Assembly: GCA_900472175.1 (NCBI GenBank)
Contig: UCHD01000004.1
Coordinates: 1 to 64,000 of the forward strand
Direction of reading: 5' to 3'
Source of the DNA: Hyphomicrobiales bacterium
Lineage (GTDB): Bacteria; Pseudomonadota; Alphaproteobacteria; Rhizobiales; Rhizobiaceae
DNA: 64,000 nucleotides
The stretch's first letter is position 1, and each line of letters opens with the position of its first letter. Positions 18,624 to 47,133 of the stretch are shown in pieces. The position numbers and the translations under genes are program-made. The notes below the pieces were generated by a model, which was given only the letters and a program-made list of their open reading frames with translations, did not search any database and had not been told where the DNA came from.

Positions 18624-19280
18624 TCAATCGTCCGAATAACGCTCTTCGCGCCAGGGATCGCCGCGCATGTGGTAGCCGTTCTTCTCCCAGAACCCGGCCT
18701 GATCTCCAATGAGGAACTCGATGCGGCGCAGCCATTTGGCGCTTTTCCAGAAGTAGAGATGCGGGATGACGAGGCGCATCGGGCCGCCGTGGTCGCGCGT
18801 CAGTGGCTCACCTTCCCAGGCTGTTGCGAGAATGCCGTCTTCGGAGGCGAAATCGGCAAGCGGCAGGTTGGTGGTGTAACCGTCATACCCGGTCAGCATG
18901 ACGAACCTCACTTCCGGCCGCGGCATGACCAGATCGAGCAGGTCGTGCGTCGAGACACCCTGCCAACGGTTGTCGTAGCGCGACCATGTCGTGACGCAAT
19001 GGATGTCCGACAGCTTTCGGCTCTGCGGCAGCCGGTGAAATGCGTCCCAATCCAGTGTAACGGGATTTTCGACGCCGCCGACAATCTGCAGCGCCCAAGT
19101 TGACTGCTGGATGCGTGGCTGCTGGCCGAGATCGAGCACCGGCCAGTTGGTAACCAGATGTTGGCCGGGTGGCAGGCGTTCGGTTTCAGCGCGCGTGATT
19201 TTTCCCGTCAGGAACTTGCCTTGCTCGGCCCAGCGGCGTTTGGACAGCGTCAGTTTCGTTTCCGCGGTTTCGTCCGTCAT
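18624..19280 (-). CDS. Cytosolic sulfite-oxidase-like molybdopterin protein
   Basis: A 218-residue protein with the oxidoreductase molybdopterin-binding fold: LVTNWPVLDLGQQPRI, WDAFHRLPQSRKLSDIHCVTTWSRYDNRWQGV with the Cys that ligates molybdenum, and MRLVIPHLYFWKSAKWLRRIEF. No signal peptide and no dimerisation or heme domain are seen, so it is a short cytosolic member, unlike periplasmic MsrP/YedY or SorA. The physiological substrate of this subgroup is not known to me. It is convergent with the cyclase gene (3 bases apart). Confidence 0.85.
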   Translation of the reverse strand: MTDETAETKLTLSKRRWAEQGKFLTGKITRAETERLPPGQHLVTNWPVLDLGQQPRIQQSTWALQIVGGVENPVTLDWDAFHRLPQSRKLSDIHCVTTWSRYDNRWQGVSTHDLLDLVMPRPEVRFVMLTGYDGYTTNLPLADFASEDGILATAWEGEPLTRDHGGPMRLVIPHLYFWKSAKWLRRIEFLIGDQAGFWEKNGYHMRGDPWREERYSDD

Positions 19281-19427: not shown

Positions 19428-21215
19428 TCAGACCGGCAGCTGGAAATAGGCGTTGGCGAACAGCACGACGGCAAGGCCTGCGGCCAGTGCCACATAGGGC
19501 AGGATGCCGGCTTTCTTGACGCCGAGGTCCTGGCCGACGAGGCCGAGGTCTTCCATCGCGCCCACCGGGAACTTCCCGCCGTCCCGCACATAGTGGCGAT
19601 AGGCAAAGACCGGCAGGATCAGGGCGGCGAAGATGAAGCCGACCCACAGCGCGTTGGAATAACCCCAGACTTTTGCACCGGCACCGAGGAACAGCGCGTT
19701 GACGAAGGCAAGAACGGTGTTGAGGCCGATCAGCCAGGTCGGGGCCTTCCAGGGGCGCTGGATGTGGCTGGAATCCATGCGGTGGATCCAGCCGGCATTG
19801 AGGTTGAGGAAGTTGAAGATGATGTAGCCGACATTGGAGACGGCCAGCACGAAGAAGTAGCCGGCGACGTCCGAGGCGATTGCAAGCAGGATCAGGTTGA
19901 AGCCGAAGTCGGTCCACATGGCGCGGGTCGGGGCGCCATGCTCGTTGACGTGATCAAGGTACTTTGGCAACCAGCCGTCTTTCGAACCTTGGTAGAGGGT
20001 GCGCGACGAACCGGCCATCGCGGTCATGATGGCGAGGAACAGCGCCATGATCATCAACAGAACGAGGATCTGCGTGATGATCTGGCCGCCATGGACGAGG
20101 CTTGCCAGGGCTTCCGCAACACCCGTGCCATCGACGATACCTGGCGCAAGCATGCCCGCATGGCCAAGAACGCCCTGGAATGTGAACGGGATGAGGAAGA
20201 AGAACAGGCAGCAGAGCAGGCCGGAATAGAAGATCGCCTTGAACGTGTCAGTCTTCGGGTTCTTCAGTTCACGGGTATAGCAGACGGCCGTTTCAAAACC
20301 GTAGGTCGACCAGGCGGCGATATAGAGGCCGCCGAGGAACAACGTCCATCCGCCATTGCTCCAGACGCCGTCGATACCGGAATAACCGGCGGTCGGTGGC
20401 ACTAGATTGGTGATGTTGGCGCTGTCGATCTGGCCGGAGAAGATCGGATAGAGGCCAATGAGCAGGAGCGGCAGCAGAACGATGATGGCGAGCCATTTCT
20501 GGACGCTTGCGGTTCCCTGGATGCCACGATGCTGGATCGCAAAGATGACCAGCATCAGAATGCCGCCGATGACGAAGGTGGCGTTGAGGTTGGCCTTGGC
20601 GAGGAAAGGAATGTCGAAGGTGATCAGCGACCAGTTGCGGATTGCCGGGGTGAGGGCGGCGATCGCGTCGGTCGACAACAGGGCCGAGATGGCGTCCTGT
20701 GGCGTCTTGCCGGCATTGGCAGCCAGCCATTCCGCGACGCGCGGGCTTTCGGCGGTTAGCGTTGCCATATTGGCGCTGATCCACTCCATTACCGCCGGGC
20801 TACCGGCGCCGGGAATGGGAAAGAGAGCATTCAGGATATAGCCCGCCGCGATGGCGCAGCCGAGCGACAGAACCGGCGACCAGGCGAACCAGTTGCACCA
20901 CACTGATAGTGGCGCGATGAATTTCGAATAACGCAGCCAGGCGGTGGCGCCATAGATCGATGCGCCGCCGGATTTGTTGCCGAACATGCCGGCGATTTCG
21001 GCGTAAGTGAAGGACTGCAGGAAGCCCATGACCATGGAAATGATCCAGACGACGAAGGCGAGCTTGCCTGTCGTTCCGGCAATGCCGCCGATGGAGAAGA
21101 GCACCAGCGGCGGTACGCCGGCAGCAACCCAGAATGCCCCTTTCCAGTCCAGCGCGCGGATCAGCCCGGTGCCCGAGGCAGCGGTCGACCCGTCGGTCTC
21201 AACGATAGATGCCAT
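19428..21215 (-). CDS. APC-superfamily amino acid/amine permease
   Basis: A 595-residue inner-membrane transporter. The start ATG at 21215 has GAGGAGACTG upstream; a longer open frame to 21344 lacks homology. At least twelve hydrophobic helices are visible, beginning ALDWKGAFWVAAGVPPLVLFSIGGIAGTTG, which is the APC consensus first helix. Later stretches include YAEIAGMFGNKSGGASIYGATAW and GLYIAAWSTYGFETAVCYTREL. A polar insertion of about 60 residues (MEWISANMATLTAESPRV...) lies between helices 4 and 5. It is divergent from tdm with a 294-base gap, in an island for methylamine breakdown, so uptake of a methylated amine, or of an amino acid formed from it, is plausible. No ABC TMAO transporter (tmoXVW) is nearby. 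The substrate is not established. Confidence 0.85.
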   Translation of the reverse strand: MASIVETDGSTAASGTGLIRALDWKGAFWVAAGVPPLVLFSIGGIAGTTGKLAFVVWIISMVMGFLQSFTYAEIAGMFGNKSGGASIYGATAWLRYSKFIAPLSVWCNWFAWSPVLSLGCAIAAGYILNALFPIPGAGSPAVMEWISANMATLTAESPRVAEWLAANAGKTPQDAISALLSTDAIAALTPAIRNWSLITFDIPFLAKANLNATFVIGGILMLVIFAIQHRGIQGTASVQKWLAIIVLLPLLLIGLYPIFSGQIDSANITNLVPPTAGYSGIDGVWSNGGWTLFLGGLYIAAWSTYGFETAVCYTRELKNPKTDTFKAIFYSGLLCCLFFFLIPFTFQGVLGHAGMLAPGIVDGTGVAEALASLVHGGQIITQILVLLMIMALFLAIMTAMAGSSRTLYQGSKDGWLPKYLDHVNEHGAPTRAMWTDFGFNLILLAIASDVAGYFFVLAVSNVGYIIFNFLNLNAGWIHRMDSSHIQRPWKAPTWLIGLNTVLAFVNALFLGAGAKVWGYSNALWVGFIFAALILPVFAYRHYVRDGGKFPVGAMEDLGLVGQDLGVKKAGILPYVALAAGLAVVLFANAYFQLPV

Positions 21216-21339
21216 AAACAGTCTCCTCGACCAGTTTTGTCTTGAAGCGCGTTTCCGCGCGTCCCCTTTATTGATGATGCCGACTGCGGTTTTTATTGCT
21301 TGGCGAAGCCTGCATTCAGCAGTGTCAATCGCCGTTCCC

Positions 21340-21357
21340 GTCACTGAATCTCGTGAC
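21340..21357. promoter_or_regulatory. Inverted repeat in the permease-tdm divergent region
   Basis: GTCAC-N8-GTGAC (21340-21344 and 21353-21357) lies in the 294-base gap between the divergently transcribed permease and tdm. Its spacing fits one turn between half-sites. It is a candidate operator only; no regulator is adjacent. Confidence 0.35.
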
Positions 21358-21509
21358 CGCAGTTATCTTCATAGTGAATTTTTTTTCCTCTCGGTCAAGT
21401 CTCTCTTTACTTTGCGGGGCCTCCCATAGGATAGTTTGGCCATATTGGCAGTGCATAAACTGGTGCTTATGGACAGGTAAGCCGACCAAGCCTTCGGGTG
21501 GGAGCTGAG

Positions 21510-23879
21510 ATGACTGATTCCGGACGATTTGCGGGCACCTTGATGCCGCCGCGGCCCAGCACGATTCTGCGGCCGGGCATTCCAGTACTTGCCCCAGGCG
21601 TCGAGCGCTACCGCGTCAAGGGACGCGGCACGACGGTCGTCAAGGTAATGGCGGGTGACCGGATCAGCATCAAGGATATCGAGGGCGGGCAGTTTTGCGA
21701 GGTCAGCTTCGTTGATGCCGCAGGGCGTTTCAATGCGGCCGGTCTCGGAGTCGCATTTTCGCGGCCCGCTTCTGGGCTTCAGGAGATCCTTGGCCGGGAT
21801 GAAGAGAGTGCGCGGCGAACACTGAGTGCGTTGAAACGGCGAAACGTCGATACCGCCGGGGCGCAGGCCCTGATGCTGTTCGGTGAAAGCTCTTCGCCGG
21901 GCGCTTCGGCAGAATGGACGATTGCGCTGGACGGACTGCTGATCGTCGCTGCTCCAGCGCCGCCGATGGATGCGGAGGCGCAGAATACTGCGACCGCGCT
22001 GGAACTGCGTGTGACCCGCACCAAAATCGAACGCACCTATGAAGAGATGCTGCCGGAGCCGATGGCTGATCCCGTGCAGGATCTGCGCATCCAGGCGGCG
22101 AGGGCATCGGCCTATTTCGTGCGGGCCGGCGAGTTCATTCAGGTCATCGACGTTTCGGGCCGGCAATGCACCGATTTTCAGGCTTTTTCGGCCCGCAAGG
22201 TCGATAAGGGGCTGGACCTGGCGCTCGACGCGACAGTGACGCGGACGCTGCTCGGCCGCAGCTATCCGACGCCGGGTCTGCCATCCAAGGCTTTCGACCG
22301 GGATTTCGAGCCGCTGGTGGAAATCGTTCAGGATACGGTCGGGCGTCATGACGCCTTCGCGACCGCCTGCAACTCACGCTACTATGACGATATGGGCTAT
22401 CCGGGGCATGTCAACTGCACCGACAATTTCAACCATGCGCTGGCGCCCTATGGGATCGCGCCGCGCAAGGGGTGGGAAGCCCTCAACTATTTCTACAACA
22501 CCAATGTCGATCATCACAACCAGCTCTATCTGGACGAGCCCTGGTCGCGGCCGGGCGATTACGTGCTGATGCGGGCGCTGACCGATCTGGTTTGCGTGTC
22601 GTCGTCCTGCCCCGACGATATCGATGCGGCCAATGCGTGGAACCCCACCGATATCCATGTCCGTACCTATTCGGACAAGGAAAAATTCTCGCGCGCCGTC
22701 GCCATCCGAATGACCCCTGATGCAGAGCCCGAAATGACCCAGGAAACCGCCTTCCATCCGCGCCTCTCAGGCCTGACCCGCAATCATGTGGAATACCGCG
22801 GCTACTGGCTGCCGAACCGCTTCAACAACGAAGGACCGATCGAGGAATACTGGGCCTGCCGCGACAAGGCCGTGGTGATGGACCTGTCGCCGCTTCGAAA
22901 ATTTGAGGTAACCGGTCCGGATGCGGAGGCATTGCTGCAATATTGCGTCACCCGCGATATCCGCAAACTGTCGCCGGGGCAGGTGGTCTATACGGCGATG
23001 TGCTACGAGAATGGCGGCATGATCGACGACGGTACCGTGTTCCGGCTGGGCGACAACAATTTCCGCTGGATCGGCGGCGATGACGTGAGCGGCATCTGGC
23101 TGCGCGAGCAGGCTGAGAAGATGGGCTACAAGGCCTGGGTCCGGTCCTCCACCGACCAGATGCACAATCTCGCTGTCCAGGGGCCGAACAGCCGCGACAT
23201 CATCAAGGAAATCATCTGGACGGCGCCGTCACAGCCGTCGATCGGCGAGCTTGAATGGTTCCGCTTCGCCGTCGGCCGCATCGGTCATTTCGAGGGCGCA
23301 CCAGTCGTTGTCTCACGCACCGGCTATACCGGTGAACTCGGCTATGAAATCTTCTGTCATCCGAAGGACGCGCTTGCCGTCTTCGATGCGGTCTGGGAAG
23401 CCGGGCAGAAGCATGGGCTGAAGCCGATGGGGCTGGAGGCGCTCGACATGGTGCGCATCGAGGCCGGGCTGGTGTTTGCCCATTACGATTTTTCCGACCA
23501 GACGGACCCGTTCGAGGCCGGTATCGGTTTCACTGTGCCGTTGAAATCGAAGACTGAGGATTTTATCGGCCGCGATGCGCTGATCAAGCGCAAGGAAAAC
23601 CCGCGCTACAAGCTGGTCGGGCTGGATATCGACGCCAATGATGCGGTCGGCCATGGCGACACGGTGCATATCGGCCGGGCACAGGTTGGCGTCGTCACCA
23701 GTGCGACCCGCTCGCCGCTTCTGAAGAAGACGATCGCGCTGGCGCGGATGGATGTGCTGCATTCGGAGATCGGCACCGAAGTCCAGATCGGCAAGCTGGA
23801 TGGCCAGCAGAAACGGCTACCGGCGAAGATCGTGCCGTTTGCGCATTACGATCCGCAGAAGCTGAAGCCGCGGTCGTAA
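21510..23879 (+). CDS. tdm: Trimethylamine N-oxide demethylase (DUF1989 plus GcvT fusion)
   Basis: A 789-residue two-part enzyme. Residues ~20-420 are a DUF1989-type metal-binding region with conserved Cys and His (GGQFCEVSF, GRQCTDFQAF, ACNSRYYDDMGYPGHVNCTDNF). Residues ~430-789 are a GcvT/aminomethyltransferase domain that binds tetrahydrofolate (GYWLPNRFNNEGPIEEYW, SRTGYTGELGYEIF, GLEALDMVRIEAGL). This domain order is that of Tdm from Roseobacter and Methylocella, which splits TMAO to dimethylamine and formaldehyde, the latter caught as methylene-THF. The ATG at 21510 is chosen over GTG at 21498 because GGGAGC sits upstream. tmm lies convergent downstream and dmmDABC beyond it. This fits TMA to TMAO to DMA to MMA. 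The DUF1989 metal ligands are inferred. Confidence 0.9.
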   Translation: MTDSGRFAGTLMPPRPSTILRPGIPVLAPGVERYRVKGRGTTVVKVMAGDRISIKDIEGGQFCEVSFVDAAGRFNAAGLGVAFSRPASGLQEILGRDEESARRTLSALKRRNVDTAGAQALMLFGESSSPGASAEWTIALDGLLIVAAPAPPMDAEAQNTATALELRVTRTKIERTYEEMLPEPMADPVQDLRIQAARASAYFVRAGEFIQVIDVSGRQCTDFQAFSARKVDKGLDLALDATVTRTLLGRSYPTPGLPSKAFDRDFEPLVEIVQDTVGRHDAFATACNSRYYDDMGYPGHVNCTDNFNHALAPYGIAPRKGWEALNYFYNTNVDHHNQLYLDEPWSRPGDYVLMRALTDLVCVSSSCPDDIDAANAWNPTDIHVRTYSDKEKFSRAVAIRMTPDAEPEMTQETAFHPRLSGLTRNHVEYRGYWLPNRFNNEGPIEEYWACRDKAVVMDLSPLRKFEVTGPDAEALLQYCVTRDIRKLSPGQVVYTAMCYENGGMIDDGTVFRLGDNNFRWIGGDDVSGIWLREQAEKMGYKAWVRSSTDQMHNLAVQGPNSRDIIKEIIWTAPSQPSIGELEWFRFAVGRIGHFEGAPVVVSRTGYTGELGYEIFCHPKDALAVFDAVWEAGQKHGLKPMGLEALDMVRIEAGLVFAHYDFSDQTDPFEAGIGFTVPLKSKTEDFIGRDALIKRKENPRYKLVGLDIDANDAVGHGDTVHIGRAQVGVVTSATRSPLLKKTIALARMDVLHSEIGTEVQIGKLDGQQKRLPAKIVPFAHYDPQKLKPRS

Positions 23880-24067
23880 CAGGATTGGCCGGGTGACGGG
23901 GACTTGCAGCCGGGAGATTGTCAGAGTTTCAGGAGACGGGCGCTTTTTGCGGGCACTATTGCGAGGATGGCGATGGCGCCCCGGCTTCCTCATAGTGGTG
24001 TCGCAATTTGCCGGGCGGAAGACGAAGGAATTTATCTGGGAATATTTTGGCAGTTTAAAATTGATGT

Positions 24068-24095
24068 GCCGAAGGCCACTCTGTTGGCCTTCGGC
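24068..24095. terminator. Hairpin between convergent tdm and tmm
   Basis: A perfect 10-bp stem (GCCGAAGGCC with GGCCTTCGGC) has an eight-base loop and lies between the two convergent stop codons. T-runs are weak on both sides, so it may act as a bidirectional terminator or only as a structural barrier. Confidence 0.55.
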
Positions 24096-24116
24096 GATTT
24101 CATCGGCAAATCGCGA

Positions 24117-25454
24117 TCAGTTCTTGAGATAAACTTCCAGCGTATCGTCCATCGCTTCCAGCCACGGGGTATGGTGCTTGGGCGCCATCGTGCCGGTCAT
24201 CAGCGATTTGTAGGCGTTGTCACGGAAGCCCATGATGTTTTCGGCCTTGTGATGTTCCCATTCCATGAAGGTCTGGTTGGTGCCTTCTACGTCGAACTTC
24301 GGATAATCGGTGTCTTCCAGTAGTTCGATGACGTAATCGCCCTGGAACCAGATCATCTGCTCCGCATCATCGAGCGTTTCCTCGCGGGCGCGCCATTTGT
24401 CGAAATGCGCCTGCATCTCCGCCTTCGGCGGCAGCTTGATGCGGTTCATGATCACATCGCGGGCATACCAGGCCTGGGCATCGAACATGTTGAAGGTGTA
24501 GAACTGGTCCTGCATACCGATATACATCAGCTGCGGATTGTCCTCGTAGACCACGCCCTTGTAGAGATTGTCCGACCACAGCCGGTTGGCGGTCTTCAGG
24601 CGCAGGTCGTCGGGCAGGAACGGGAAGTGGTGGAGATAACCGGTGCACAGGATCAGTGCATCGACCTCCTTGGTCGAGCCATCGGCAAAATGCGCCGTCT
24701 TGTTGACCAGTTTCTGCAGCAGCGGCCGTTCCTCGAAACGCTCCGGCCACTTGAAGCCCATCGGCTTGGAACGGTAGCTGGTGGTCACCGATTTCGCGCC
24801 ATATTTCCAGCATTGCGAGCCGATATCCTCGGCCGAATAGGAGCGGCCAACGATCAAAACGTCCTTGTCCTTGAACTCCAGCGCATCGCGGAAATCATGC
24901 GCGTGCAGGACGCGGCCGCCAAAGGTCTTCACACCTTCGAAATAGGGAACGTTCGGGGTGGAGAAATGGCCGGAGGCGACAACGACATAATCGAAGATTT
25001 CGTCATACATGACGTCGTTGACGCGGTCGTGCGCGGTGACAGTAAAGGTCTTTGATTCCTCATCGAAACGGACCATGCGCACTGGTGTCGAGAAGCGCAC
25101 CCACTTGCGCACATCGGCCTTTTCGACTCGGCCCTTGATATAGTCCCAGAGCACGGCGCGGGGCGGGTAGGAACCGATCGGCTTGCCGAAATGCTCCTCG
25201 AACGAGTAGTCGGCGAATTCCAGGCATTCCTTCGGGCCGTTCGACCAGAGATAGCGGTACATGCTGCCATGAACCGGCTCGCCATATTCATCAAGCCCGG
25301 TGCGCCAGGTGTAGTTCCAAAGGCCACCCCAATCAGCCTGTTTTTCGAAGCAGACGATTTCCGGGATGTCTGCCCCCTTCTGGGCGGCGGACTGGAAGGC
25401 TCTCAATTGAGCGAGGCCCGAGGGGCCCGCGCCGATCACGGCTACTCTGGTCAT
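24117..25454 (-). CDS. tmm: Trimethylamine monooxygenase (flavin-containing)
   Basis: A 445-residue bacterial FMO that oxidises trimethylamine to TMAO with NADPH and O2. The FAD motif GAGPSG is at residues 8-13, the FMO fingerprint [11 protein letters not shown] (FxGxxxHxxxF) at 178-188, and the NADPH-binding motif [11 protein letters not shown] at ~202-212. The protein follows bacterial Tmm over its full length ([62 protein letters not shown]). The ATG at 25454 follows AAGGGAACA. An Arg stands in the nucleotide motif where I recall Ser in characterised Tmm; I cannot tell its effect. It lies downstream of dmmC on the same strand, separated by a RIME-like repeat. Confidence 0.93.
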
Positions 25455-25525
25455 GTCTGTTTGTTCCCTTTTTATGTCGTTGTCAGTTCTTCCGGTCGTT
25501 GCCGAATATCTCTCTATGCCGTTTG

Positions 25526-25637
25526 CCCTCACCCTAGCCCTCTCCCCGCATGCGGGGAGAGGGGACGACGGAGGTCGTCCGCTTGTCCCTTCTCCCCGTT
25601 CACGGGGAGAAGGTGGCCGACAGGCCGGATGAGGGGC
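25526..25637. repeat. RIME-like intergenic palindromic repeat, copy 2
   Basis: Same layout as copy 1: CCCTCACCCTAGCCC edge, hairpin CTCTCCCCGcatgCGGGGAGAG, hairpin CTTCTCCCCGttcaCGGGGAGAAG, then GGCCGGATGAGGGG. It lies between dmmC and tmm and may end or attenuate the dmm transcript. Confidence 0.82.
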
Positions 25638-25648
25638 TTTTTCTCTCC

Positions 25649-26689
25649 TTAATCCGGGTAAATCCCCGCGCTGGTCGGTGCACCGTCATCATATTTCGCC
25701 AGCCAGTCGATCATGATCGGGCGATTGCGGGTCAGGCCCTTGTAGTCGACGATCTCCGGCGGCAGGCTTTTGAGCACACGCGGGAGGCGGCGGCCCCATT
25801 TCGGGACGGTTACCAGTTCGTCGAGGCTGATCAGGTAGCAGCGGATGACGAAGAGGATGGCGTTGGAGCGCGGCAGGCGCCAGAGGCTCTGGAGTTCGAC
25901 ACGCAGGTGCATCTTGTTGCCGACATTTTCCGGCGTCACGGTCTGACGGTCCGGTCCCCATTTGTGATAGTTTTCCGGTGAGGTATCGAGCCTCGGATTG
26001 ACCGTCATCGTCCAGTTGAGACGACGGGTCGGCTTGCCCTGCTGCAGGTTCAGGAGGAATTTCAGCGCCCGGTCGAACACGCCGATCTGGTGGGCGAGCG
26101 GCACCGGCCCATGCCATTCCATGAAGTTCATGCCGATGTCGAAATCCAGCGACCAGTCGGCCTGGGTGGTGACCATGCCGGCATCCATCCAGAGGTTGTT
26201 GTCGCGCTGGTCGACGATACAGAAATCGCCCTGGGCCTGCCGGGTGATATATTCCATCGGCGGATAGGACAGGGTCGATGGATCGCCGAACGTAAAGGTG
26301 TCGTCGATACCCATCGGCCGGTTGATCCAGCGCCAGCGGTCGCCGTTCTTCTCCAATGTGAAATGCTCGGGGTAATCCTGTGCCTGGTGCTCCATCAACA
26401 GCTCCAGCACGTCCCATTGCGCCGCCATCATATGCGGCAGGGCCTGGCAGCGCAGCGGATCTTCCTTCAGGACCATCGCCCGGTCCTGCATCTCGGCGAC
26501 ATAGTGCTCGTCGACGTCGATCAGGTTTTCAAAGACGCTGTCCGCCTTGCCGCGGATATGCGGCTCCATATTGACCGAATACATGTATTCGTCGCGGTCG
26601 AAGGGGAAGGGGAAACGCCTGATATTGGTGAGGCTGTTGCGGAAGGTGAAGTCGTCGCGGAACGTTTCGCTCCTGAACGTGATGGTCAT
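25649..26689 (-). CDS. dmmC: Dimethylamine monooxygenase, heme-dependent catalytic subunit (DUF3445)
   Basis: A 346-residue member of the DUF3445 / heme-dependent oxidative N-demethylase family. Distinctive stretches: [57 protein letters not shown]-type core (here [19 protein letters not shown]) and [22 protein letters not shown]. By analogy with the Ruegeria and Pseudomonas enzymes it removes one methyl from dimethylamine, giving monomethylamine and formaldehyde, with electrons from the reductase subunit. It is the fourth gene of dmmDABC, 18 bases after dmmB. Letter names follow the D-A-B-C gene order; subunit lettering in the literature should be checked. Confidence 0.85.
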
Positions 26690-26707
26690 CTGTCCGGTCC
26701 CCTTGAG

Positions 26708-27673
26708 CTAGAGTTGAAGAACGAGTTGCTGGCCCTTGAACCGCGAGACGCAGATCATGACCTTCTTGCCGGATGCCTTTTCGTCATCCGACAGGTAGAT
26801 ATCGTTATGCTCCAGCGTGCCGTCGCAGGAGGAGACTTCAGTCTCGCACTGGCCGCAGGCGCCGCCCCGGCACATGTAGGGGGCGTCGCAGCCATGCGCT
26901 TCGGCTGCTTCCAGAATGCTCTGGTGTTCGCCGACGGTCATGTGGATATTGGATTTTTCGAGGAATACCTGGAACGGCAGGCCCGCGGGCGGCGCGAGGA
27001 AGCGTTCCGAATGCAGGTTTTCCTTCGGCCATCCGGCTTTCAGCCCGGTCATCAGCACGCCGTCGATCATGCCGGCGGGACCGCAGACATAGAGATGCGT
27101 GCCGAGCGGCTGGTTGTCGGCAATCTCTGCGACGGGAATGTAGGTCTTTTCCTCATCGACGTAGATCTTGATGCGGCGCGGGCCGTAGCGATCCAGTAAT
27201 TGCTGCCAGTAAGCGCCGTGTGAGCGTGAGCGGATGGCGTAGTGCAGTTCGAAAGCGATGTTGTCGCGGCTGAACTGTTCTATCATCGCGATGAACGGCG
27301 TGATGCCGATGCCGCCGGCAAACAGGATGTGCTTGCGGCCGCGATGATCCGGCGCAAACAGGTTGACCGGCTGGCTGACCGTCAACCGGTCGCCGGGACG
27401 GACCTGCTCGTGCATGAAGATTGAGCCGCCGCGCGAGTTTGGAACCCTGAGCACGCTGATTTCATAAGCGCTGTTGTCGTCGGGATTCGACATCAGCGAA
27501 TAGGGGTTGCGGCGCAAAAGCCCATTGTCGTTCATCGAGACGACGACATGGGCGCCGCCGGAGAAGAACGGCATGGGACGGCCGTCCAGCCGCTCGAAGC
27601 GGAAGCGTTTGACCAGATCGGTCACCTGCGTCACCGCTGCGACCCTGACAGGCATATCTGTGTTGAGGCTCAC
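26708..27673 (-). CDS. dmmB: Dimethylamine monooxygenase reductase subunit (PDR/VanB type)
   Basis: A 321-residue electron-transfer protein. An FNR-like flavin domain comes first (RRNPYSLMS binds FMN), then an NAD(P)H domain (LFAGGIGITPFIAMIEQ, YVCGPAGMIDGVL), then a plant-type [2Fe-2S] ferredoxin domain (CRGGACGQCET with a later Cys in VMICVSRFKG). This is the phthalate-dioxygenase-reductase layout. It passes electrons from NAD(P)H to the heme subunit DmmC. It begins with GTG at 27673 and overlaps dmmA by four bases, so translation is coupled. It might also serve the orphan Rieske oxygenase at 44761-45990, which lacks its own reductase; that is inference. Confidence 0.88.
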   Translation of the reverse strand: MSLNTDMPVRVAAVTQVTDLVKRFRFERLDGRPMPFFSGGAHVVVSMNDNGLLRRNPYSLMSNPDDNSAYEISVLRVPNSRGGSIFMHEQVRPGDRLTVSQPVNLFAPDHRGRKHILFAGGIGITPFIAMIEQFSRDNIAFELHYAIRSRSHGAYWQQLLDRYGPRRIKIYVDEEKTYIPVAEIADNQPLGTHLYVCGPAGMIDGVLMTGLKAGWPKENLHSERFLAPPAGLPFQVFLEKSNIHMTVGEHQSILEAAEAHGCDAPYMCRGGACGQCETEVSSCDGTLEHNDIYLSDDEKASGKKVMICVSRFKGQQLVLQL

Positions 27674-28275
27674 GGGAACATCTCCTCGGGGGCAGGCGCA
27701 GTGCCCGGTTCTTCCGCATCGATGTTGACGCCCTGGAACGCGCCGAGACGCCGGGAATAGTGGTCACGGACTAGCAGCGGCAGGCCGCAATGCGTGCAGG
27801 CAAAGGGACTGGTGGTCACGTTGTCAGTGATGCCCTTGCAGTGCACGCATTGTACGCGGCGCGCCGTCGAGCCGCGATGTTCGGTATGGATCGAGTTGAA
27901 ATCGATACCGAATTCCAGCGCCACCTGCATGATCTGGCCAATGAAGCCTTCGGTCCCGGCGATGTAGAGCCGCGTTCCCATCCGCGCCTGCTCAAGACAG
28001 GCACGCAGGCGAAATAACAGCGGCTGAAGCGTTGGGGCCTGCCAGAAGACATCGGGTGACAGAGCCGAGAGGGCTACGTCGTACGCTTTCGGCGCTGCCC
28101 CTGCGGCGAGATAGAGAATTTCCGATTTGGCCAGAAAATCCGTGCCCTTCAGTTCCACCTGATCGGCGAACGCTGCCGCCCCTTCGCCTTCAAGGACGAA
28201 GAGGTGGCGCTTGGCGTGGGGATCGATGTCGAGCCCCTTATATTCCGGCCGGCTTTTGATCCCTTGTACGAGCAT
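27670..28275 (-). CDS. dmmA: Dimethylamine monooxygenase subunit, DmmA family
   Basis: A 201-residue protein; ATG at 28275, four bases after the dmmD stop, preceded by AGGG. Residues 1-150 look like a flavodoxin/reductase-like alpha/beta domain (RHLFVLEGEGAAAF, RLYIAGTEGFIGQIMQVAL). Residues ~150-180 carry a zinc-ribbon or rubredoxin-like CxxC...CxxC pair (VQCVHCKG and FACTHCGLPL). This is the small third subunit of the DMA monooxygenase; its exact role, electron transfer or assembly, is not settled. Its position between dmmD and dmmB supports the call. Confidence 0.82.
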   Translation of the reverse strand: MLVQGIKSRPEYKGLDIDPHAKRHLFVLEGEGAAAFADQVELKGTDFLAKSEILYLAAGAAPKAYDVALSALSPDVFWQAPTLQPLLFRLRACLEQARMGTRLYIAGTEGFIGQIMQVALEFGIDFNSIHTEHRGSTARRVQCVHCKGITDNVTTSPFACTHCGLPLLVRDHYSRRLGAFQGVNIDAEEPGTAPAPEEMFP

Positions 28276-28279
28276 ACCG

Positions 28280-29413
28280 TCAGCCCTGCGCCGTCCGTTT
28301 CGTCTTCTTCGGATCATCGAAGGTGATCGTATGGGCGATGGCCGGGGCGTTGACGGTCTTGCCCTTCACGTGGAGCTTGGTGCCTTGGACGGCATAGGGA
28401 ACCTCGACGCGCATGATCGCCATTGAGCGGTTGGTGAGCTTGGAATAGGACGGGCAGGTGATGACGCCGACCTTTTTGTCGCCGGCCCAGACCTCGTCGC
28501 CGAGATCGGTCGGGCCGTCAGATTCGACCAGCAGACCGAAGATCTTGAAGCGTTCCTTGCCCTTCAGGCGGGCATGTTCCTCGGCGCCGCGAAAACCGGT
28601 CTTGCCCGGGCTGACGGTGAAATCGAGGCCGAGTTCCCAGAGGCTGTCGCCCGGCTGTTCGTTGGCGAAGGGATACATCTGCGAATTGTCATAGGGGTAG
28701 AACAGCAGGTAGCTTTCGACGCGCAGCATGTCGAGAACGCTGAAGCAGACGGGAATGATGCCCATCGCCTTGCCTTCATCGACGATCCGGTCCCAGACCA
28801 TGCCGGCATCCTGGCCCCGCACGAAGATTTCATAGCCGCGTTCGCCGGTATAGCCGGTGCGCGAGATCATTACCGGGGCGCCGAACAGCGTCGTCTGCAT
28901 ATGATGGAAATATTTGAGGTCGCGGATGCCGGGCACGTATTTCTCAAGGTAATCGACGGCCAGTGGACCCTGCAGCGACAGGTCGTGCAGGTCGTCATCG
29001 AACAGCACGGCGCAATTGCGGCCCTGGGCCTGCTTGACGATTTCCTCGAAGCCGGAGCCCGAGCCATGCACCAGCATCCAGGAGTTTGGGCCGGTGCGGT
29101 AGACGATGCAGTCATCGGTGAAATGACCGCGATCGTTGAGCATGCAGGCATAGACCGACTTGCCGGGATAAACCTTCGTCATGTCGCGGGTGGTGATATA
29201 TTCCAGCACGGCGATCGCATGCGGGCCGACGAGGTGAACCTTCTTCAGGCCGGAGACGTCCATGATGCCGGCCTTGGTGCGCACGGCGATGTGTTCTTCA
29301 TAAATATCCTTGTCATAGGTCCAGGCGGTTCCCATGCCGCTCCAGTCCTCGAGGTTCGATCCCAATGCCCGATGTCGGTCGCCCAAGGCGGAAAAACGCC
29401 AGCTAAGTGCCAT
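28280..29413 (-). CDS. dmmD: GcvT-family aminomethyltransferase of the dimethylamine operon
   Basis: A 377-residue stand-alone tetrahydrofolate-binding GcvT protein (AGIMDVSGLKKVHLVGP, TRDMTKVYPGKSVYACMLNDRGHFTDDCIVY, ISRTGYTGERGYEIFV, SVLDMLRVESYLLFYPYD). It presumably captures formaldehyde released by DmmABC as 5,10-methylene-THF. It is the first gene of dmmDABC. Its ATG has AAGGGAACAAATC upstream, the same leader type as tmm and the dehydrogenase at 39616. A near-palindrome at 29443-29457 lies about 30 bases before the start and is a candidate operator. Confidence 0.85.
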   Translation of the reverse strand: MALSWRFSALGDRHRALGSNLEDWSGMGTAWTYDKDIYEEHIAVRTKAGIMDVSGLKKVHLVGPHAIAVLEYITTRDMTKVYPGKSVYACMLNDRGHFTDDCIVYRTGPNSWMLVHGSGSGFEEIVKQAQGRNCAVLFDDDLHDLSLQGPLAVDYLEKYVPGIRDLKYFHHMQTTLFGAPVMISRTGYTGERGYEIFVRGQDAGMVWDRIVDEGKAMGIIPVCFSVLDMLRVESYLLFYPYDNSQMYPFANEQPGDSLWELGLDFTVSPGKTGFRGAEEHARLKGKERFKIFGLLVESDGPTDLGDEVWAGDKKVGVITCPSYSKLTNRSMAIMRVEVPYAVQGTKLHVKGKTVNAPAIAHTITFDDPKKTKRTAQG

Positions 29414-29442
29414 GATTTGTTCCCTTATTTATTTCACTCTGT

Positions 29443-29457
29443 GGAAATAATTATTCC
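29443..29457. promoter_or_regulatory. AT-rich near-palindrome ahead of dmmD
   Basis: GGAAATAATTATTCC, palindromic except for one extra A, starts 30 bases upstream of the dmmD start codon. It overlaps a looser repeat, ATTTC-N8-GAAAT, at 29430-29447. It is a candidate operator or promoter core. No regulator gene is adjacent. Confidence 0.4.
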
Positions 29458-29633
29458 TGAGTATATTCGCGTTTTTGGGAACGGCAAGCCCGCGATGTGG
29501 ATTTATCGCCGGAAAGTGCGGTGTCGCGAACGGCGAAAATCATGCCGTTTTCGTGCTTCGGCATGCAAGGCTGAGGGTATTCAACGCCGGAAATCCTGAC
29601 TTTTCAAGTGGCGTGATCTGGGAGAGGCAGAAA

Positions 29634-34988: not shown

Positions 34989-35762
34989 TTATGCCGATTT
35001 TAAAAACCGGTCGTTCAGGTAGCCTGAGATCACGCCGAGCACGATCCAGAACGCCAGTGTCGTTGCCAGAGCCGCGACTGCAAATTCCGCGCCGAGGACG
35101 GCTGGAACCGGGCTTGAGATATCTGACGGTTGCGGCGCGCCATAGGCATGTGGTGCAGCAATCAGGACAAGGCCAATGATCTTGGCGACGATTTCACCGC
35201 GCAAAACGACGAGATAAAGGCCGGCAACGGAGAGCACGATCGTTGCGATCCACCAGGCCTGCCGGTCATGCAGATCGGCGGCAGGAAAGCCCGGCAGCTC
35301 CGGCGGCAGGCCGATGGCGGGCAGGAGATGGATAGCCAGCCAGCCGCATGCGCCCCAGAGCGCGCCGTTGCGGAGCGTGACCGGATAATTGAAGACAAGG
35401 CTGGCACCTGCAAGCAAAAGACCAAAGCCGGCACCTGCCACCAGATTGGCAAGCAGCGTGCCGGAGAACCGGCTCATGCCGAACATGATGCCGCCCTCGC
35501 CTTCGTGTTCACCCTCATGCGCATAGGCCGGCGTGACCGGTGAGAGTGCCGACAGCATCTCGCCGATTACCGAAGAACGCGTCAGCGAAGAGTGCTGCTG
35601 CTGGCCGTCGGTGGTTGCCGGCGGTTCTGCAGCGGGTTCCTTGACCTCATATTCCTCGGCGTGAAGGATGAGTGGGACCACCCGCAATTCCTGCGCCGCG
35701 GTCATGAAGACGCCCGCGATCAGTCCAGCCACCAATGCGGCCAGAAGTGTTTTGACAATCAT
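34989..35762 (-). CDS. cbtA: Cobalt transporter subunit CbtA
   Basis: A 257-residue inner-membrane protein with about five or six hydrophobic helices (KTLLAALVAGLIAGVFMTAAQ first; LLANLVAGAGFGLLLAGASLV; GALWGACGWLAIHLLPAIGLP; FAVAALATTLAFWIVLGVISGYL last). A His/Glu-rich loop AYAHEGEHEGEGG can bind metal. The family was predicted to import cobalt for B12 synthesis because its genes sit under cobalamin riboswitches. The same holds here: cbtB precedes it by 194 bases on the same strand, with a riboswitch ahead. Confidence 0.9.
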   Translation of the reverse strand: MIVKTLLAALVAGLIAGVFMTAAQELRVVPLILHAEEYEVKEPAAEPPATTDGQQQHSSLTRSSVIGEMLSALSPVTPAYAHEGEHEGEGGIMFGMSRFSGTLLANLVAGAGFGLLLAGASLVFNYPVTLRNGALWGACGWLAIHLLPAIGLPPELPGFPAADLHDRQAWWIATIVLSVAGLYLVVLRGEIVAKIIGLVLIAAPHAYGAPQPSDISSPVPAVLGAEFAVAALATTLAFWIVLGVISGYLNDRFLKSA

Positions 35763-36133: not shown

Positions 36134-36195
36134 GACAACCTCCGTGATGGCGCGTGGGAAATATCCCACCAATTGGGCACCATGCCCTTCATCAA

Positions 36196-36405
36196 CCGGC
36201 AGGTTTCCTGGCTCGCGGCGTCAGGCGCTTTCGCGCCAAGGAGTTTGTCTTGCCTTCCCGGGGCGGGGACGAAAAGTCCCTTGCCTCAGTGGCTTTTACC
36301 GGTCGAACATACCGGCATGACAAACTCTGACCGCTCTACAGTCGCGGGGTCGGCCGTGATAAAGATGCCCAGAATGGGTCCACCCGTCACGTTCCCATTT
36401 ACTCC
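36196..36405 (-). promoter_or_regulatory. Cobalamin (B12) riboswitch ahead of cbtBA
   Basis: On the minus strand the leader contains the B12 box GAGCCAGGAAACCTGCC at about 36197-36213. It also has the conserved AAATGGGAAC and GACGGG segment at about 36384-36402 and the GCGACTGT core near 36337-36344. The region ends about 60 bases before the cbtB start. Element type and strand agree with its target, a cobalt transporter. Confidence 0.9.
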
Positions 36406-36410
36406 CCGAA

Positions 36411-36670
36411 AGCGCCTCGCTCACAGGGAACCAATTGATTGGGCAATGATTATGCCGACACCCTTGTCATGTCAATTCGGGGCTGCGACCTGTCATGACG
36501 CATTGCTGCTGTTGATTTTGCGCCGAATGTCGGATTTTAATATGCAAGATCTCGCTGAGAGCGCCTAAGTTGCAACTGATTTATTTAAAGCAACACCTGC
36601 TGGTTGATTATTTTTAACGTTGCTCGCCATCAATAACGGAACAATAGTTCTTTAGGAACCTTGGTGTAGA
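36411..36670. other. Non-coding stretch between the riboswitch and the GGDEF-EAL gene
   Basis: No gene is seen. It should contain the divergent promoters of the cbtBA leader and of the PAS-GGDEF-EAL gene. A palindromic GTCATGAC at about 36492 and an AT-rich tract at 36575-36620 are the only notable parts. Confidence 0.4.
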
Positions 36671-38504: not shown

Positions 38505-39353
38505 CTATTGCCCCAGCAGATCCTGCATGACGCCGATGATGCGGCGGTGCTGGTGCGCGTGGCGCGTGCGGATGCTGGTGGCGGCGTAAACCGCCTGTTG
38601 TATCGGCGGTGCATCTGTGATCGGGAAGGCTAAACCTTCGCCTTCAAGGCGCAAGGCGGTGCTGCCGGTCACGTAGGCGGCGCCTCCGAGCGCCTTCAAG
38701 AGGCCGGTAATGGCGATGTTTTGCCCAGAGGCCAGTGGTGCTGCGGAAAGCTGCGGCAGCGCCAGCCGGTGTGCACGATCGAATGCAGGGGAATAGACGG
38801 CCTGGATATAGGTTTCCGGTAGCAATTCTGCGACTGTCCGGGCCGTTGTGCCGACCAGCACATACGTCATGTCGCCGATCCGTTCATAATGCAGGTCCGG
38901 CAGATAATGTGGCGTATAGAGAATAGCGAGATCGAGATCGCCGGCGGCCAGATCGCGGTTCATCTGGTTGGAATAATCGGCTTCCATATAGATCGAGGTC
39001 GTCGGTAAGTCGGCCCGGACGGCTGAGAGCCATCTGCCGGCAAAGGCCTCGGCCAGATCATGCTGAATGCCGAGCCGCATGGAGCGTTCGTAGGTGCCGG
39101 CATTTTCCACGGCCCGTGTTGCCTCGTGCCATTGATGCTGCAGGGCCTTGGCGTGATCGAGGAAGCGCAGGCCGGAGGCGGTTGGCGCCGTGCCACCCTT
39201 GTTGCGGGTAAAAAGCTTGCGGTTGAACTGTGCTTCCAGCGCCTTGACCCTATGCGAAACGGTGGATTGCGTGATGTTTAGCCGTTCCGCAGTTCGATTG
39301 AAGCTGCGGGTTTCCATCAGGTCGAGGAAGGTTTCGATGAGGTCGATCTGCAT
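38505..39353 (-). CDS. LysR-type regulator beside the FAD/GcvT dehydrogenases
   Basis: A 282-residue LysR protein starting at the ATG at 39353 (MQIDLIETFLDLMETRSFNRTAERLNITQSTVSHRVKALEAQF is the helix-turn-helix). The open frame continues upstream to 39617, but that part is a translated palindromic repeat and is not real. The effector domain follows (SMRLGIQHDLAEAFAGRWLSAVRADLP). It is divergent from the dehydrogenase gene at 39616, with a 262-base gap that contains an ATC-N9-GAT palindrome at 39527-39541. Control of the 39.6-46 kb block, with a betaine or related amine as inducer, is inference. Confidence 0.85.
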   Translation of the reverse strand: MQIDLIETFLDLMETRSFNRTAERLNITQSTVSHRVKALEAQFNRKLFTRNKGGTAPTASGLRFLDHAKALQHQWHEATRAVENAGTYERSMRLGIQHDLAEAFAGRWLSAVRADLPTTSIYMEADYSNQMNRDLAAGDLDLAILYTPHYLPDLHYERIGDMTYVLVGTTARTVAELLPETYIQAVYSPAFDRAHRLALPQLSAAPLASGQNIAITGLLKALGGAAYVTGSTALRLEGEGLAFPITDAPPIQQAVYAATSIRTRHAHQHRRIIGVMQDLLGQ

Positions 39354-39376
39354 GGGTGTTTCCGTTTCTGCGTGAA

Positions 39377-39507
39377 AACCCCTCCCCAGCCCTCCCCACA
39401 AGGGGGGGCGACGGTGCTCCGTCTCGCCTTCCGTGAGCTCATGCAAAGGGCAGGCGGCAGTCTCGATAAACTCCCTCCCCCTTGTGGGGAGGGTTGGGGA
39501 GGGGTTT
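39377..39507. repeat. Palindromic repeat, second family, between divergent genes
   Basis: Inverted arms of about 35 bases, near 39377-39411 (AACCCCTCCCCAGCCCTCCC ...) and 39473-39507 (... GGAGGGTTGGGGAGGGGTTT), enclose about 60 bases. The sequence differs from the CTCTCCCCG hairpin type found elsewhere in the window, so this is a separate rhizobial repeat family. Confidence 0.8.
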
Positions 39508-39526
39508 ATTTCATTCCTGCAATCTA

Positions 39527-39541
39527 ATCGAATTCTTCGAT
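39527..39541. promoter_or_regulatory. ATC-N9-GAT LysR-type palindrome
   Basis: ATCGAA-TTC-TTCGAT is a perfect 6-3-6 palindrome matching the ATC-N9-GAT pattern known from nod boxes and other LysR operators. It lies 75 bases upstream of the dehydrogenase start and in the gap shared with the LysR gene, the expected place for an activator site. Confidence 0.65.
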
Positions 39542-39615
39542 CAATAAAGCGCATTCTGACCGCTTGATGCAAATGCTGTTCATGGCCAAAACTTCCTGCA
39601 AACAAGGGAACAGAC

Positions 39616-42063
39616 ATGTCGAATTTGCCGTCTTATGCGCGCGTCGTGATCATTGGGGGAGGTGCGGTCGGTGCGTCCGCTCTCTATCATCTGGCCAAGG
39701 CCGGATGGACGGACTGCGTGCTTCTGGAAAAGAACGAGTTGACGGCCGGTTCGACATGGCATGCGGCGGGCAACGTGCCGACATTTTCGTCCTCCTGGTC
39801 GATCATGAACATGCAGCGCTATTCGGCCTCGCTCTACCGCGAACTGGGCGCGCTGGTCGATTATCCGATGAATTACCATGTCACCGGCTCGATCCGGCTT
39901 GGCCATTCCAAGGAGCGGCTGCAGGAGTTCAAGCGCGTCGTCGGCATGGGGCGCTATCAGGGCATGGACCTCGATATCCTCTCGCCGGATCAGATCAGGT
40001 CGAAATACCCCTTCGTCGAAACTCATGACCTGACCGGTGCGCTTTACGATCCCTATGACGGCGACATCGACCCGGCGCAGCTGACGCAGGCGCTGGCCAA
40101 GGGCGCGCGCGACATGGGCGCGAAAATCTTCCGCTTCTGTCCCGCCACCGGCGCGCGCCGGGAAAATGAAGAGTGGATCATTTCCACGCCGCAGGGCGAA
40201 ATCCGCTGTGAATACGTCGTCAATGCCGCGGGTTATTACGCCCGCGAGGTCGGAAAATGGTTCGGCCGCGACGTGCCGATGATGGTCATGAGCCATCAAT
40301 ACATGCTCTTCGAGGAAATTCCGGAACTGGCCGCCTGGTCGAAGGAAGCCGGGCACAAATTGCCGCTGCTGCGCGATGTCGACAGTTCCTATTACCTGCG
40401 CCAGGAAAAGACCGGGATGAATCTCGGTCCCTATGAGAAAAACTGCAAGGCGCACTGGATCACGCCGGACGATCCGATGCCGGAGGATTTTTCCTTCCAG
40501 CTTTTCCCCGACGATCTGGAGCGGCTGGAATGGTATCTGAACGATGCCGTCGAGCGCGTGCCGATCCTCGGCACCGCCGGTCTGTCGCGGATGATCAATG
40601 GACCGATCCCTTATGCGCCGGATGGCAACCCGCTGATCGGACCGATGCCGGGCGTGCCGAATGCGTTCGAGGCTTGCGTCTTTACCTTCGGCATCTGCCA
40701 GGCGGGTGGTGCCGGCAAGGTGCTGGCTGAATGGGTAACGGAAGGGCAGACGGAGTGGGACATGTGGTCCTGCGATCCGCGCCGGTTCACCAGTTTTACC
40801 GATCAGGATTATTGCATCGCCAAGGGCATGGAAATTTATGGCCATGAATATGCCATGCATTTCCCGAAACATGCCTGGCCTGCGGGCCGCAACAAGAAGC
40901 TGTCGCCCATCCACGACCGGATCGCGGCCCTTGGCGCGCAGTTCAAGCCCTATAACGGCTGGGAGCGGGCCAACTGGTACGCCAAGCCGGGCGACGACCT
41001 GTCGGAAGAAGCCACGCAGACCTGGAACCGGGCGGGACCTTGGCAGAAACGCATCGAGGAGGAATGCCTCGCCGTCACCAATGCCGCCGGTATCCTCGAC
41101 CTGCCGGGCTTTTCCCGCTACCGGCTGAAGGGCGAGGGCGCCCGCAACTGGTTGCTTGGCCTCACCACCGGCAAGGTGCCGAAGCTGGGACGGATCGGGC
41201 TTGCCTATTTCTCAGACGACAAGGGCCGTATCGTCACTGAAATGTCGGTCATGGCGCTGGAAGAGGATTTCTTCTTCCTGATCACGGCGGCAACGGCGCA
41301 GTGGCACGATTTCGAATGGCTGAAAAAACACCTGCCGCAGGATGCGGCGTTCACGCTGGACGATGTCTCGGACAGCTTTACCTGCCAGATCCTTTCCGGT
41401 CCGAAGTCGCGGGACATCCTGGCCGAGGTTTCCGATGCCGATCTGGCCAAGGGTTGGCTGACGCATCAGTCGGTGCAGATCGCCGGGCGCTGGTGCCAGC
41501 TGGTGCGCGTCTCCTTCGCCGGCGAACTCGGCTGGGAAATACACACTAAGATCGATGATACAGCGACGATCTTTGACGCGGTCTGGGCTGCCGGGCAGAA
41601 GCATGGCCTGAAACCCTTCGGAATGGAGGCGCTGGACAGTCTGCGCATCGAAAAGGGTTATCGTGCCTGGAAAGGCGATCTTTCGACTGACTACACCATT
41701 CTGCAGGGCGGGCTCGAACGCTTTGTCGATTGGGGAAAACCGGACTTCAAGGGCAAGGCGGCGCTGGAGCGGGAAAAGCAGCAGGGCGTGACCAAACGCT
41801 TCGTGACGCTGATCGTCGACGCTGGAGATTGCGACGCGCCCTACATGTCGACGCTCTGGCATGGTGGCAAGGTTGTCGGCGAAACGACCTCGGGCAACTG
41901 GGGTTACCGCATCGGTAAATCCGTGGCGCTCGGTATGCTGCGCGCTGATCTTGCGCAGCCTGGTACCGAAGTCGAAGTCGAGATCTACGGCGACCGTTTC
42001 AAAGCCATCGTGCAGGCGGATGAGCCATTGTTTGATCCCAAGAATGAAAGACTGCGCGCATGA
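39616..42063 (+). CDS. FAD oxidoreductase-GcvT fusion, dimethylglycine/sarcosine dehydrogenase type (1)
   Basis: An 815-residue protein. An N-terminal DAO-type FAD domain carries VVIIGGGAVGASALYHLAKAG at 10-30 and STWHAAG at 47-53; by homology to DMGDH, His49 is the covalent FAD site. The C-terminal GcvT region (from ~430) contains YRLKGEGARNWLLGLTTG, SFAGELGWEIHTK and FGMEALDSLRIEKGYRAWKGD, for capture of the methyl group on THF. The enzyme should oxidatively demethylate a secondary or tertiary N-methyl amino acid. Its ATG follows AAGGGAACAGAC. It overlaps the next paralogue by four bases (ATGA). The exact substrate is not set; dimethylglycine is the best guess given the Rieske gene downstream. 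Confidence 0.82.
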   Translation: MSNLPSYARVVIIGGGAVGASALYHLAKAGWTDCVLLEKNELTAGSTWHAAGNVPTFSSSWSIMNMQRYSASLYRELGALVDYPMNYHVTGSIRLGHSKERLQEFKRVVGMGRYQGMDLDILSPDQIRSKYPFVETHDLTGALYDPYDGDIDPAQLTQALAKGARDMGAKIFRFCPATGARRENEEWIISTPQGEIRCEYVVNAAGYYAREVGKWFGRDVPMMVMSHQYMLFEEIPELAAWSKEAGHKLPLLRDVDSSYYLRQEKTGMNLGPYEKNCKAHWITPDDPMPEDFSFQLFPDDLERLEWYLNDAVERVPILGTAGLSRMINGPIPYAPDGNPLIGPMPGVPNAFEACVFTFGICQAGGAGKVLAEWVTEGQTEWDMWSCDPRRFTSFTDQDYCIAKGMEIYGHEYAMHFPKHAWPAGRNKKLSPIHDRIAALGAQFKPYNGWERANWYAKPGDDLSEEATQTWNRAGPWQKRIEEECLAVTNAAGILDLPGFSRYRLKGEGARNWLLGLTTGKVPKLGRIGLAYFSDDKGRIVTEMSVMALEEDFFFLITAATAQWHDFEWLKKHLPQDAAFTLDDVSDSFTCQILSGPKSRDILAEVSDADLAKGWLTHQSVQIAGRWCQLVRVSFAGELGWEIHTKIDDTATIFDAVWAAGQKHGLKPFGMEALDSLRIEKGYRAWKGDLSTDYTILQGGLERFVDWGKPDFKGKAALEREKQQGVTKRFVTLIVDAGDCDAPYMSTLWHGGKVVGETTSGNWGYRIGKSVALGMLRADLAQPGTEVEVEIYGDRFKAIVQADEPLFDPKNERLRA

Positions 42064-44507: not shown

Positions 44508-44509
44508 TT

Positions 44510-47111: not shown

Positions 47112-47133
47112 CGGCAGGCCCCGCAGGCAGCCT

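Follow-up and report, generated by a model that had tools for sequence, protein, structure and literature searches.

Does a rhizobial genome that carries genes for turning trimethylamine (TMA) into methylamine (MMA) also carry the means to use the MMA? The question is raised by a gene cluster in the first 64,000 nucleotides, hereafter the window, of contig C23 (UCHD01000004.1) of a 5.46-Mb, 50-contig assembly (GCA_900472175.1, Hyphomicrobiales bacterium). A first-pass annotation had placed tmm, tdm and dmmDABC here together with a permease and assigned them to the route from TMA over trimethylamine N-oxide (TMAO) and dimethylamine (DMA) to MMA. It found neither gmaS, mgs and mgd nor a TMAO ABC transporter in the window, and proposed that the MMA genes lie elsewhere or that MMA is released. 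Gene identities, gene order, conserved residues, the presence of the lower pathway and co-occurrence in relatives were observed directly, and with a probability of about 90% the cluster would be the upper half, intact, of the aerobic route that is standard for methylated amines in Alphaproteobacteria, with the lower half in the same genome.

The open reading frames (ORFs) at 19428-29413 were scanned against Pfam and NCBIfam. The family models agreed with the presence of all seven genes side by side and with the assigned steps, DmmB and DmmC being placed by domains and position only (Table 1). On the minus strand the order is dmmD-A-B-C-tmm, with small gaps or overlaps within dmmDABC and about 190 bases ahead of tmm, a spacing that fits one transcription unit or two. 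The dmmD-A-B-C order, a DmmA family protein, a reductase and a subunit of the haem-dependent oxidative N-demethylase type are all present, and the order matches that of Rhizobium johnstonii pRL11 and Rhizobium sp. T136. tdm and the permease gene are oriented divergently, with about 290 bases between them. Whereas a PAS-domain gene stands beside tmm in pRL11 and T136, only 237 bases separate the stops of tdm and tmm in the window. For the permease, Tdm, Tmm and DmmA, the ORFs as called by the tool probably begin upstream of the true starts. Coding sequence lengths in relatives point to starts at 21215 (595 amino acids), 21510 (789 amino acids), 25454 (445 amino acids) and 28275 (201 amino acids), respectively.

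Tdm and Tmm, on which the assignment hinges, were compared with solved structures and with characterized enzymes. The closest solved structure to Tdm in a sequence search was a TMAO demethylase (PDB 9q59, E=0), and the PDB matches of Tmm were the flavin-containing monooxygenases 2xve, 5gsn and 5ipy and the trimethylamine monooxygenase 6kbw. For the Tdm of Methylocella silvestris BL2, PMC12560246 gives C263, C279 and C343 as zinc ligands, H276 and D346 as proposed iron ligands and D198 as the subject of an earlier proposal as a bridge. All six residues are identical in the window Tdm at an offset of 28 (C291, C307 and C371 for zinc, H304 and D374 for iron, and D226), a mapping based on the spacing of the M. 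silvestris positions and not on alignment to that protein. Across an alignment of 86 Tdm rows (the window and 85 others), conservation of the four Cys and His residues was 98% or higher, and D226 and D374 were invariant in an eight-row alignment (A1). Tmm contains the FAD and NADPH motifs GAGPSG and VGRSYS as well as the Asn of NGPKEC and the Asp of MQDQ, two residues discussed in PMC8498191 and located here through their motifs, not by aligning Tmm with the mutated enzyme.

Tdm and DmmD both contain a GCV_T domain, and they scored 254.8 and 186.8 bits with GcvT models, under the cut-off of 300. Tdm did not group with the other GCV_T types sampled; a grouping with other GcvT groups is what the first-pass annotation had named as refuting its assignment. 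In a GCV_T-domain tree, 14 Tdm rows were set off together by one branch (98/99) and 11 DmmD rows by another (100/100), both apart from six same-genome SoxA-/DMGDH-type rows; the tree comprised 31 chosen rows without a glycine-cleavage GcvT row, and a long-branch warning applies to those six. Scores were also examined in 199 genomes sampled evenly across the same family, the genome studied and two congeners included. Among the values listed, Tmm scores dropped from 821 bits directly to 102, and Tdm scores from 1031 to 282, save one 681-bit match that starts at a contig end. Over 14 well-known control genomes the cut-off was exceeded by Tdm in none and by Tmm in one. This gap and the few control matches argue that Tmm and Tdm are not chance matches.

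The first-pass annotation had noted the absence of a TMAO ABC transporter, which is explained by the permease it had itself listed. This permease, TmoP, scored over the TMAO permease equivalog model NF053774, so that no ABC importer would be needed, and the missing importer was rejected as a gap in the pathway. Seven OpuAC-type binding proteins are encoded in the genome; the three best of these matched PDB entries named for glycine betaine, betaine/proline and choline (E ≤ 1e-10), and none named for TMAO, in a PDB copy that presumably holds the TmoX structure. Roseobacter imports TMAO by the ABC importer TmoXVW, whereas the window encodes an APC-type TMAO permease. Tdm and the permease both pass NCBIfam models whose short names end in Msil, a likeness to M. 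silvestris BL2 that is one of models and not of a comparison with the BL2 sequence itself.

The MMA genes were found outside the window. tblastn searches, gene by gene, found gmaS, mgs, mgd, purU and folD all absent from the 64 kb, as the first-pass annotation had observed for gmaS, mgs and mgd, and the whole-genome search it had suggested for these three located all of them on contig C33, of which C33:1-20000 was read. There, gmaS, mgsCBA, two regulator genes and mgdABCD form one cluster at C33:190-11566, and all eight N-methylglutamate (NMG) pathway genes are present in the genome. The GmaS-type protein matched TIGR03105 at C33:196-1482 with about 680.4-680.8 bits (cut-off 469.6). The soxB, soxA and soxD types passed their subfamily cut-offs, soxD by 0.2 bits. 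Three soxA-type genes in the genome are over the cut-off, and the C33 copy was the nearest of them to the gmaS-linked soxA-type gene in each of the 23 fetched loci that hold both, with a broad margin in Rhizobium-type loci (93 vs 65% in RAC02). Of the two outcomes left open for MMA, genes elsewhere held and release did not. Excretion of MMA as the end product is highly improbable: although no MMA gene lies within the window, and MMA genes adjoin dmmD in two relatives and not here, the same genome has a complete gmaS-mgs-mgd cluster and both congeners examined possess gmaS, mgs and mgdA/mgdC. MMA release was rejected on the discovery of gmaS-mgs-mgd on C33.

Table 1. Features of the upper pathway (window positions, contig C23) and of the lower pathway (contig C33). 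ORFs extend from tool-chosen starts, which accounts for the overlaps between ORFs on C33.
Feature	Position	Strand	Supporting match or remark
TMAO permease TmoP (APC superfamily)	19428..21344	-	NF053774 839.8 bits, cut-off 690; PF13520
Divergent promoter region, permease/tdm	21216..21509	.	gap between likely starts, ~290 bases
Tdm, TMAO demethylase (DUF1989 + GCV_T)	21498..23879	+	NF053776 1256.1 bits, cut-off 1100
Tmm, trimethylamine monooxygenase	24117..25532	-	NF058570 851.6 bits, cut-off 675
DmmC, haem-dependent oxidative N-demethylase alpha-like subunit, DMA monooxygenase	25649..26689	-	PF11927 243.3 bits; PDB 5lte E=3.4e-150
DmmB, FAD/NAD(P)/2Fe-2S reductase subunit	26708..27673	-	PF00970, PF00175, PF00111, PF22290 (DmmA-like_N); operon position
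DmmA	27670..28317	-	NF041259 121.5 bits, cut-off 60; PF22290 + PF22289
DmmD, stand-alone GCV_T protein	28280..29413	-	PF01571
Candidate operator 5' of dmmD	29433..29458	-	near-palindrome GGAATAATTATTTCC, then GTGAA; directly after TATACT box (by eye); conserved in related dmmD promoters
gmaS	C33:190-1497	-	TIGR03105
mgsC	C33:1589-2917	-	
mgsB	C33:2933-3655	-	
mgsA	C33:3658-4563	-	
XRE-type regulator	C33:4676-5371	-	
AraC/GlxA-type regulator (HTH_18)	C33:5447-6499	-	beside mgdA
mgdA/soxB	C33:6395-7765	+	
mgdB/soxD	C33:7775-8047	+	
mgdC/soxA	C33:7939-11001	+	
mgdD/soxG	C33:10994-11566	+	

Activity, substrates, expression and the fate of formaldehyde are taken over from published work on other bacteria. 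By this analogy TmoP would import TMAO, Tmm would convert TMA into TMAO with NADPH and O2, and the Zn/Fe enzyme Tdm would split TMAO into DMA and formaldehyde. DmmABC would then yield MMA and formaldehyde from DMA, while DmmD, presumed to act in tetrahydrofolate-linked formaldehyde handling, would assist transfer of the formaldehyde to tetrahydrofolate; PMC5520151 describes the function of DmmABC and the role of DmmD. MMA would be taken over by GmaS, MgsABC and MgdABCD from C33.

The co-occurrence of the two halves was assessed in the 199 family genomes. Tdm was over its cut-off in 39 and Tmm in 32, and a GmaS-type gene was present in 61 (E ≤ 1e-150, all over the cut-off). Every genome with Tmm (32 of 32) also had Tdm and a GmaS-type gene. 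The latter occurred in 37 of 39 genomes with Tdm vs 24 of 160 without it (Fisher p = 1.4e-21). The first-pass annotation had hinted at an unusual rhizobial setting, a hint that does not fit with Tdm in 39 of 199 family genomes or with the gene set published for Aminobacter (PMC8235418). At the level of the class, 23 of 289 genomes were over the Tdm cut-off. A plasmid collection contained 134 records with a stretch that spans 80% or more of Tdm and 139 with a relative of Tmm (E ≤ 1e-60), 95 of the latter Rhizobium by name. Acinetobacter plasmid records with such a Tmm relative at 80% query cover or more numbered 22.

Conservation of gene order was examined in 85 named loci, all picked for Tdm or Tmm: five plasmid stretches and the best 80 loci from a scan of species genomes with alignment A1, in which at least 565 stretches encode a relative. 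pRL11 is present twice in this set, many loci are cut by contig ends and the identity cut-offs were set by the authors. The permease was found in 61 loci, tmm in 50, dmmC and dmmB in 39 each, dmmA and dmmD in 36 each, mgsC in 31 and gmaS in 29. The window order tmoP-tdm-tmm-dmmCBAD recurs in loci of Rhizobium, Pararhizobium and Shinella, and a different arrangement was seen in Mesorhizobium, Aminobacter and Paracoccaceae. This recurrence bears on the possibility that the enzymes serve mainly substrates other than free TMA or TMAO, for example dimethyl sulfide (DMS) oxidized by Tmm, or DMA arriving from elsewhere. DMS is also oxidized by Tmm enzymes, according to PMC8498191, and a second, distinct N-demethylation gene group lies in the window at 39616-45990. 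Such a use is nevertheless unlikely, as genes for Tmm, Tdm, the permease and the DMA monooxygenase recur in the same order in many relatives, which fits serial demethylation. Two loci in the set, named Mycobacterium sp. KBS0706 (L059) and Mycolicibacterium sp. MAG (L065), hold rhizobial-type tdm/tmm/dmm clusters with Tdm 76 and 75% identical to that of the window; their names or bins are probably wrong.

Several points weigh against reading the two clusters as one complete pathway. Upper and lower genes are on two contigs, which leaves their joint expression putative. DmmB and DmmC match no NCBIfam model over its cut-off, and their names are accordingly provisional. TIGR03105, a model for type III glutamate-ammonia ligase, is also exceeded in Synechococcus elongatus (one of the 14 controls); as it is not GmaS-specific, the name GmaS is based on the mgs and mgd neighbours. 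With 117.1 bits, MgdD (soxG) stayed below its cut-off (143.95). The sox models do not tell Mgd from sarcosine oxidase. The margin of the C33 SoxA is tiny in Mesorhizobium (52.3 vs 52.0% in L080). Finally PurU, whose gene adjoins gmaS in relatives, was not over its cut-off in this assembly.

The division onto two contigs was not accepted as an assembly error, since both congeners have it too: upper and lower modules are on separate contigs in all three genomes of the genus searched, namely this one and the congeners G100 and G167. G100 and one of the synteny loci (Rhizobium sp. Leaf453, L043) probably stem from a single genome and do not count as independent. As none of the lower genes is in the window, joining C23 and C33 at their first bases would still leave roughly 20 kb or more between the modules. 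C33 ends just past gmaS, about where purU starts in G100. Three full-length copies of purU are present in G100, and in G167 a contig end falls inside purU. purU repeats probably break these assemblies. A true loss of purU was not accepted, an assembly gap from repeats being the simpler reading. PurU was over its cut-off in two of ten genomes asked and may be dispensable.

The origin of the cluster was addressed with a tree of 86 Tdm rows, built by a quick method without marine Roseobacter, SAR11 or Methylocella rows and read with taxon names in place of a species tree, as the loci contain no marker gene. The window Tdm is in a set of seven rows with Pararhizobium polonicum, Rhizobium sp. Leaf453, Sinorhizobium sp. 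RAC02, two Shinella and Rhizobium sp. T136 (SH-aLRT 96), nested within 13 rhizobial rows (SH-aLRT 99). In blastn against eight loci the longest alignment was to P. polonicum (17.8 kb, mean identity 85.7%). A recent gain from marine bacteria, Roseobacter or alike, might be considered because the gene set is best known from marine Roseobacter, and because transfers may happen, as suggested by rows named Inquilinus, Mycobacterium and Mycolicibacterium and a Paracoccaceae row (L083, a long branch of unsure place) among the rhizobial Tdm rows. It is very unlikely in view of the two supported rhizobial sets, in a tree of the above composition, of the equal G+C content of the cluster and the rest of the window (0.599 vs 0.598), and of the flanking lysR and molybdopterin genes, which are common to the window and P. 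polonicum. Transfer or mislabelling thus appears to occur in the wider Tdm group, and nothing indicates a recent entry into the genome studied. The lysR neighbour (15573) was present in two of the 85 loci. The molybdopterin neighbour encodes a 218-amino-acid protein with a molybdopterin oxidoreductase domain, adjoins the TMAO permease gene (18624-19280, minus strand) and was present in three of the 85 loci and in both congeners.

A possible regulatory connection between the modules was seen in the promoter of dmmD. The motif there was noticed by eye before scoring, and a matrix was trained on dmmD promoters only, of which 29 out of 35 (37 in total, with the window's own and the short one of L066 excluded) contributed 16 distinct sites; kinship inflates the counts. 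The dmmD site of P. polonicum is identical to that of the window. Over 104 kb of the genome, the best match after the dmmD site (itself matched on both strands) was at 8732 inside a coding frame (10.8 bits), and the next were a weak one in the tmoP-tdm promoter (21363-21388, 10.3 bits) and one in the mgsA promoter (C33:4630, 8.7 bits), both below the 99th percentile of shuffles (11.8 and 10.0, respectively). Among distinct promoters of the fetched loci this percentile was exceeded in 13 of 24 for mgsA, 20 of 60 for tmoP, 27 of 85 for tdm (partly the same region), 6 of 13 for xre, 5 of 49 for tmm, 1 of 6 for glxA and 0 of 27 for mgdA. An earlier pattern, TTTC-spacer-GAAA, occurred with a spacer of 8 in 9 of 37 dmmD and 0 of 24 mgsA promoters, and with a spacer of 9 in 0 of 37 dmmD and 4 of 24 mgsA promoters. 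It was absent from all 61 tmoP promoters. It is possible, though doubtful, that the upper (tmm/tdm/dmm) and lower (gmaS/mgs/mgd) modules of Rhizobiaceae form one regulon via a shared operator, GGAAATAAATATTCC-N6-GAAA, 5' of dmmD, tmoP-tdm and mgsA, read by the conserved XRE- or AraC-type regulator whose gene lies between mgs and mgd. The shared operator is a tentative lead and suggestive only. According to PMC13390433, Rhodobacterales and some Hyphomicrobiales have TmaR, an AraC-type regulator whose gene frequently adjoins mgd; the genome studied resembles Ruegeria pomeroyi in having an AraC-type regulator gene adjoining mgd.

Other features were observed elsewhere in the window. The second N-demethylation group extends over 38505-47201 and comprises a LysR regulator, an Lrp/AsnC-type regulator and the demethylation genes. 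The latter encode two tandem 815-amino-acid DAO + GCV_T proteins (39616-42063 and 42060-44507) and a Rieske oxygenase (44737-45990) whose closest family is glycine betaine monooxygenase, at 268.6 bits far below the cut-off of 670. The substrate of this group is perhaps another betaine. A cobalamin riboswitch (RF00174, 67.4 bits, 36181-36450, minus strand) is located 5' of a CbtA-type cobalt transporter gene (34989-35762). A TonB-dependent receptor (50243-52477, minus strand) scored 1354.5 with a ferrioxamine B receptor model (cut-off 904), and a periplasmic binding protein is encoded nearby (48365-49549).

The arrangement was compared with known systems. R. johnstonii 3841 pRL11 and Rhizobium sp. 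T136 pT136c carry orthologous tmoP, tdm, tmm and dmmCBAD genes at 66-97% identity. Past dmmD the order there is (folD, T136 only)-purU-gmaS-mgs-GlxA-mgd, the T136 stretch stopping at the first mgd gene, whereas in the genome studied the lower genes are on the other contig. PMC8235418 reports tmm, tmd, tmoP and dmmDABC together with NMG genes in Aminobacter, the same seven upper genes, permease included, as in the window. In A. aminovorans KCTC 2477, by the same paper, the upper genes are chromosomal while a plasmid carries the NMG genes, a division resembling the one described here. Aminobacter additionally has a serine cycle. Gene order in the only Aminobacter locus fetched (L090) differs from that of the window. 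The comparison with R. pomeroyi DSS-3 is one of published enzyme steps (PMC5520151), which are the same. A literature search found no account of the methylated-amine pathway in Pararhizobium, papers naming P. polonicum being outside its scope.

The cluster is best read as part of a methylated-amine pathway that is complete by gene content and belongs to a kind already known, in a rhizobium near Pararhizobium. It is real and, the set being common in relatives, not surprising. Its benefit is likely nitrogen, plus energy via one-carbon oxidation. PMC4653772 reports Tmm and growth on TMA for Mesorhizobium sp. 1M-11, and adds that M. loti with gmaS does not grow methylotrophically on methylated amines; the genes alone are therefore no proof of carbon use. 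The genome joins other rhizobial ones that apparently can exploit TMA and TMAO fully as a nitrogen source, and it illustrates that what looks like a pathway gap in a single window may come down to genome layout. It agrees with the idea that land bacteria, and not just marine ones, may act as a sink for methylated amines, as work on Aminobacter and Mesorhizobium already suggests.

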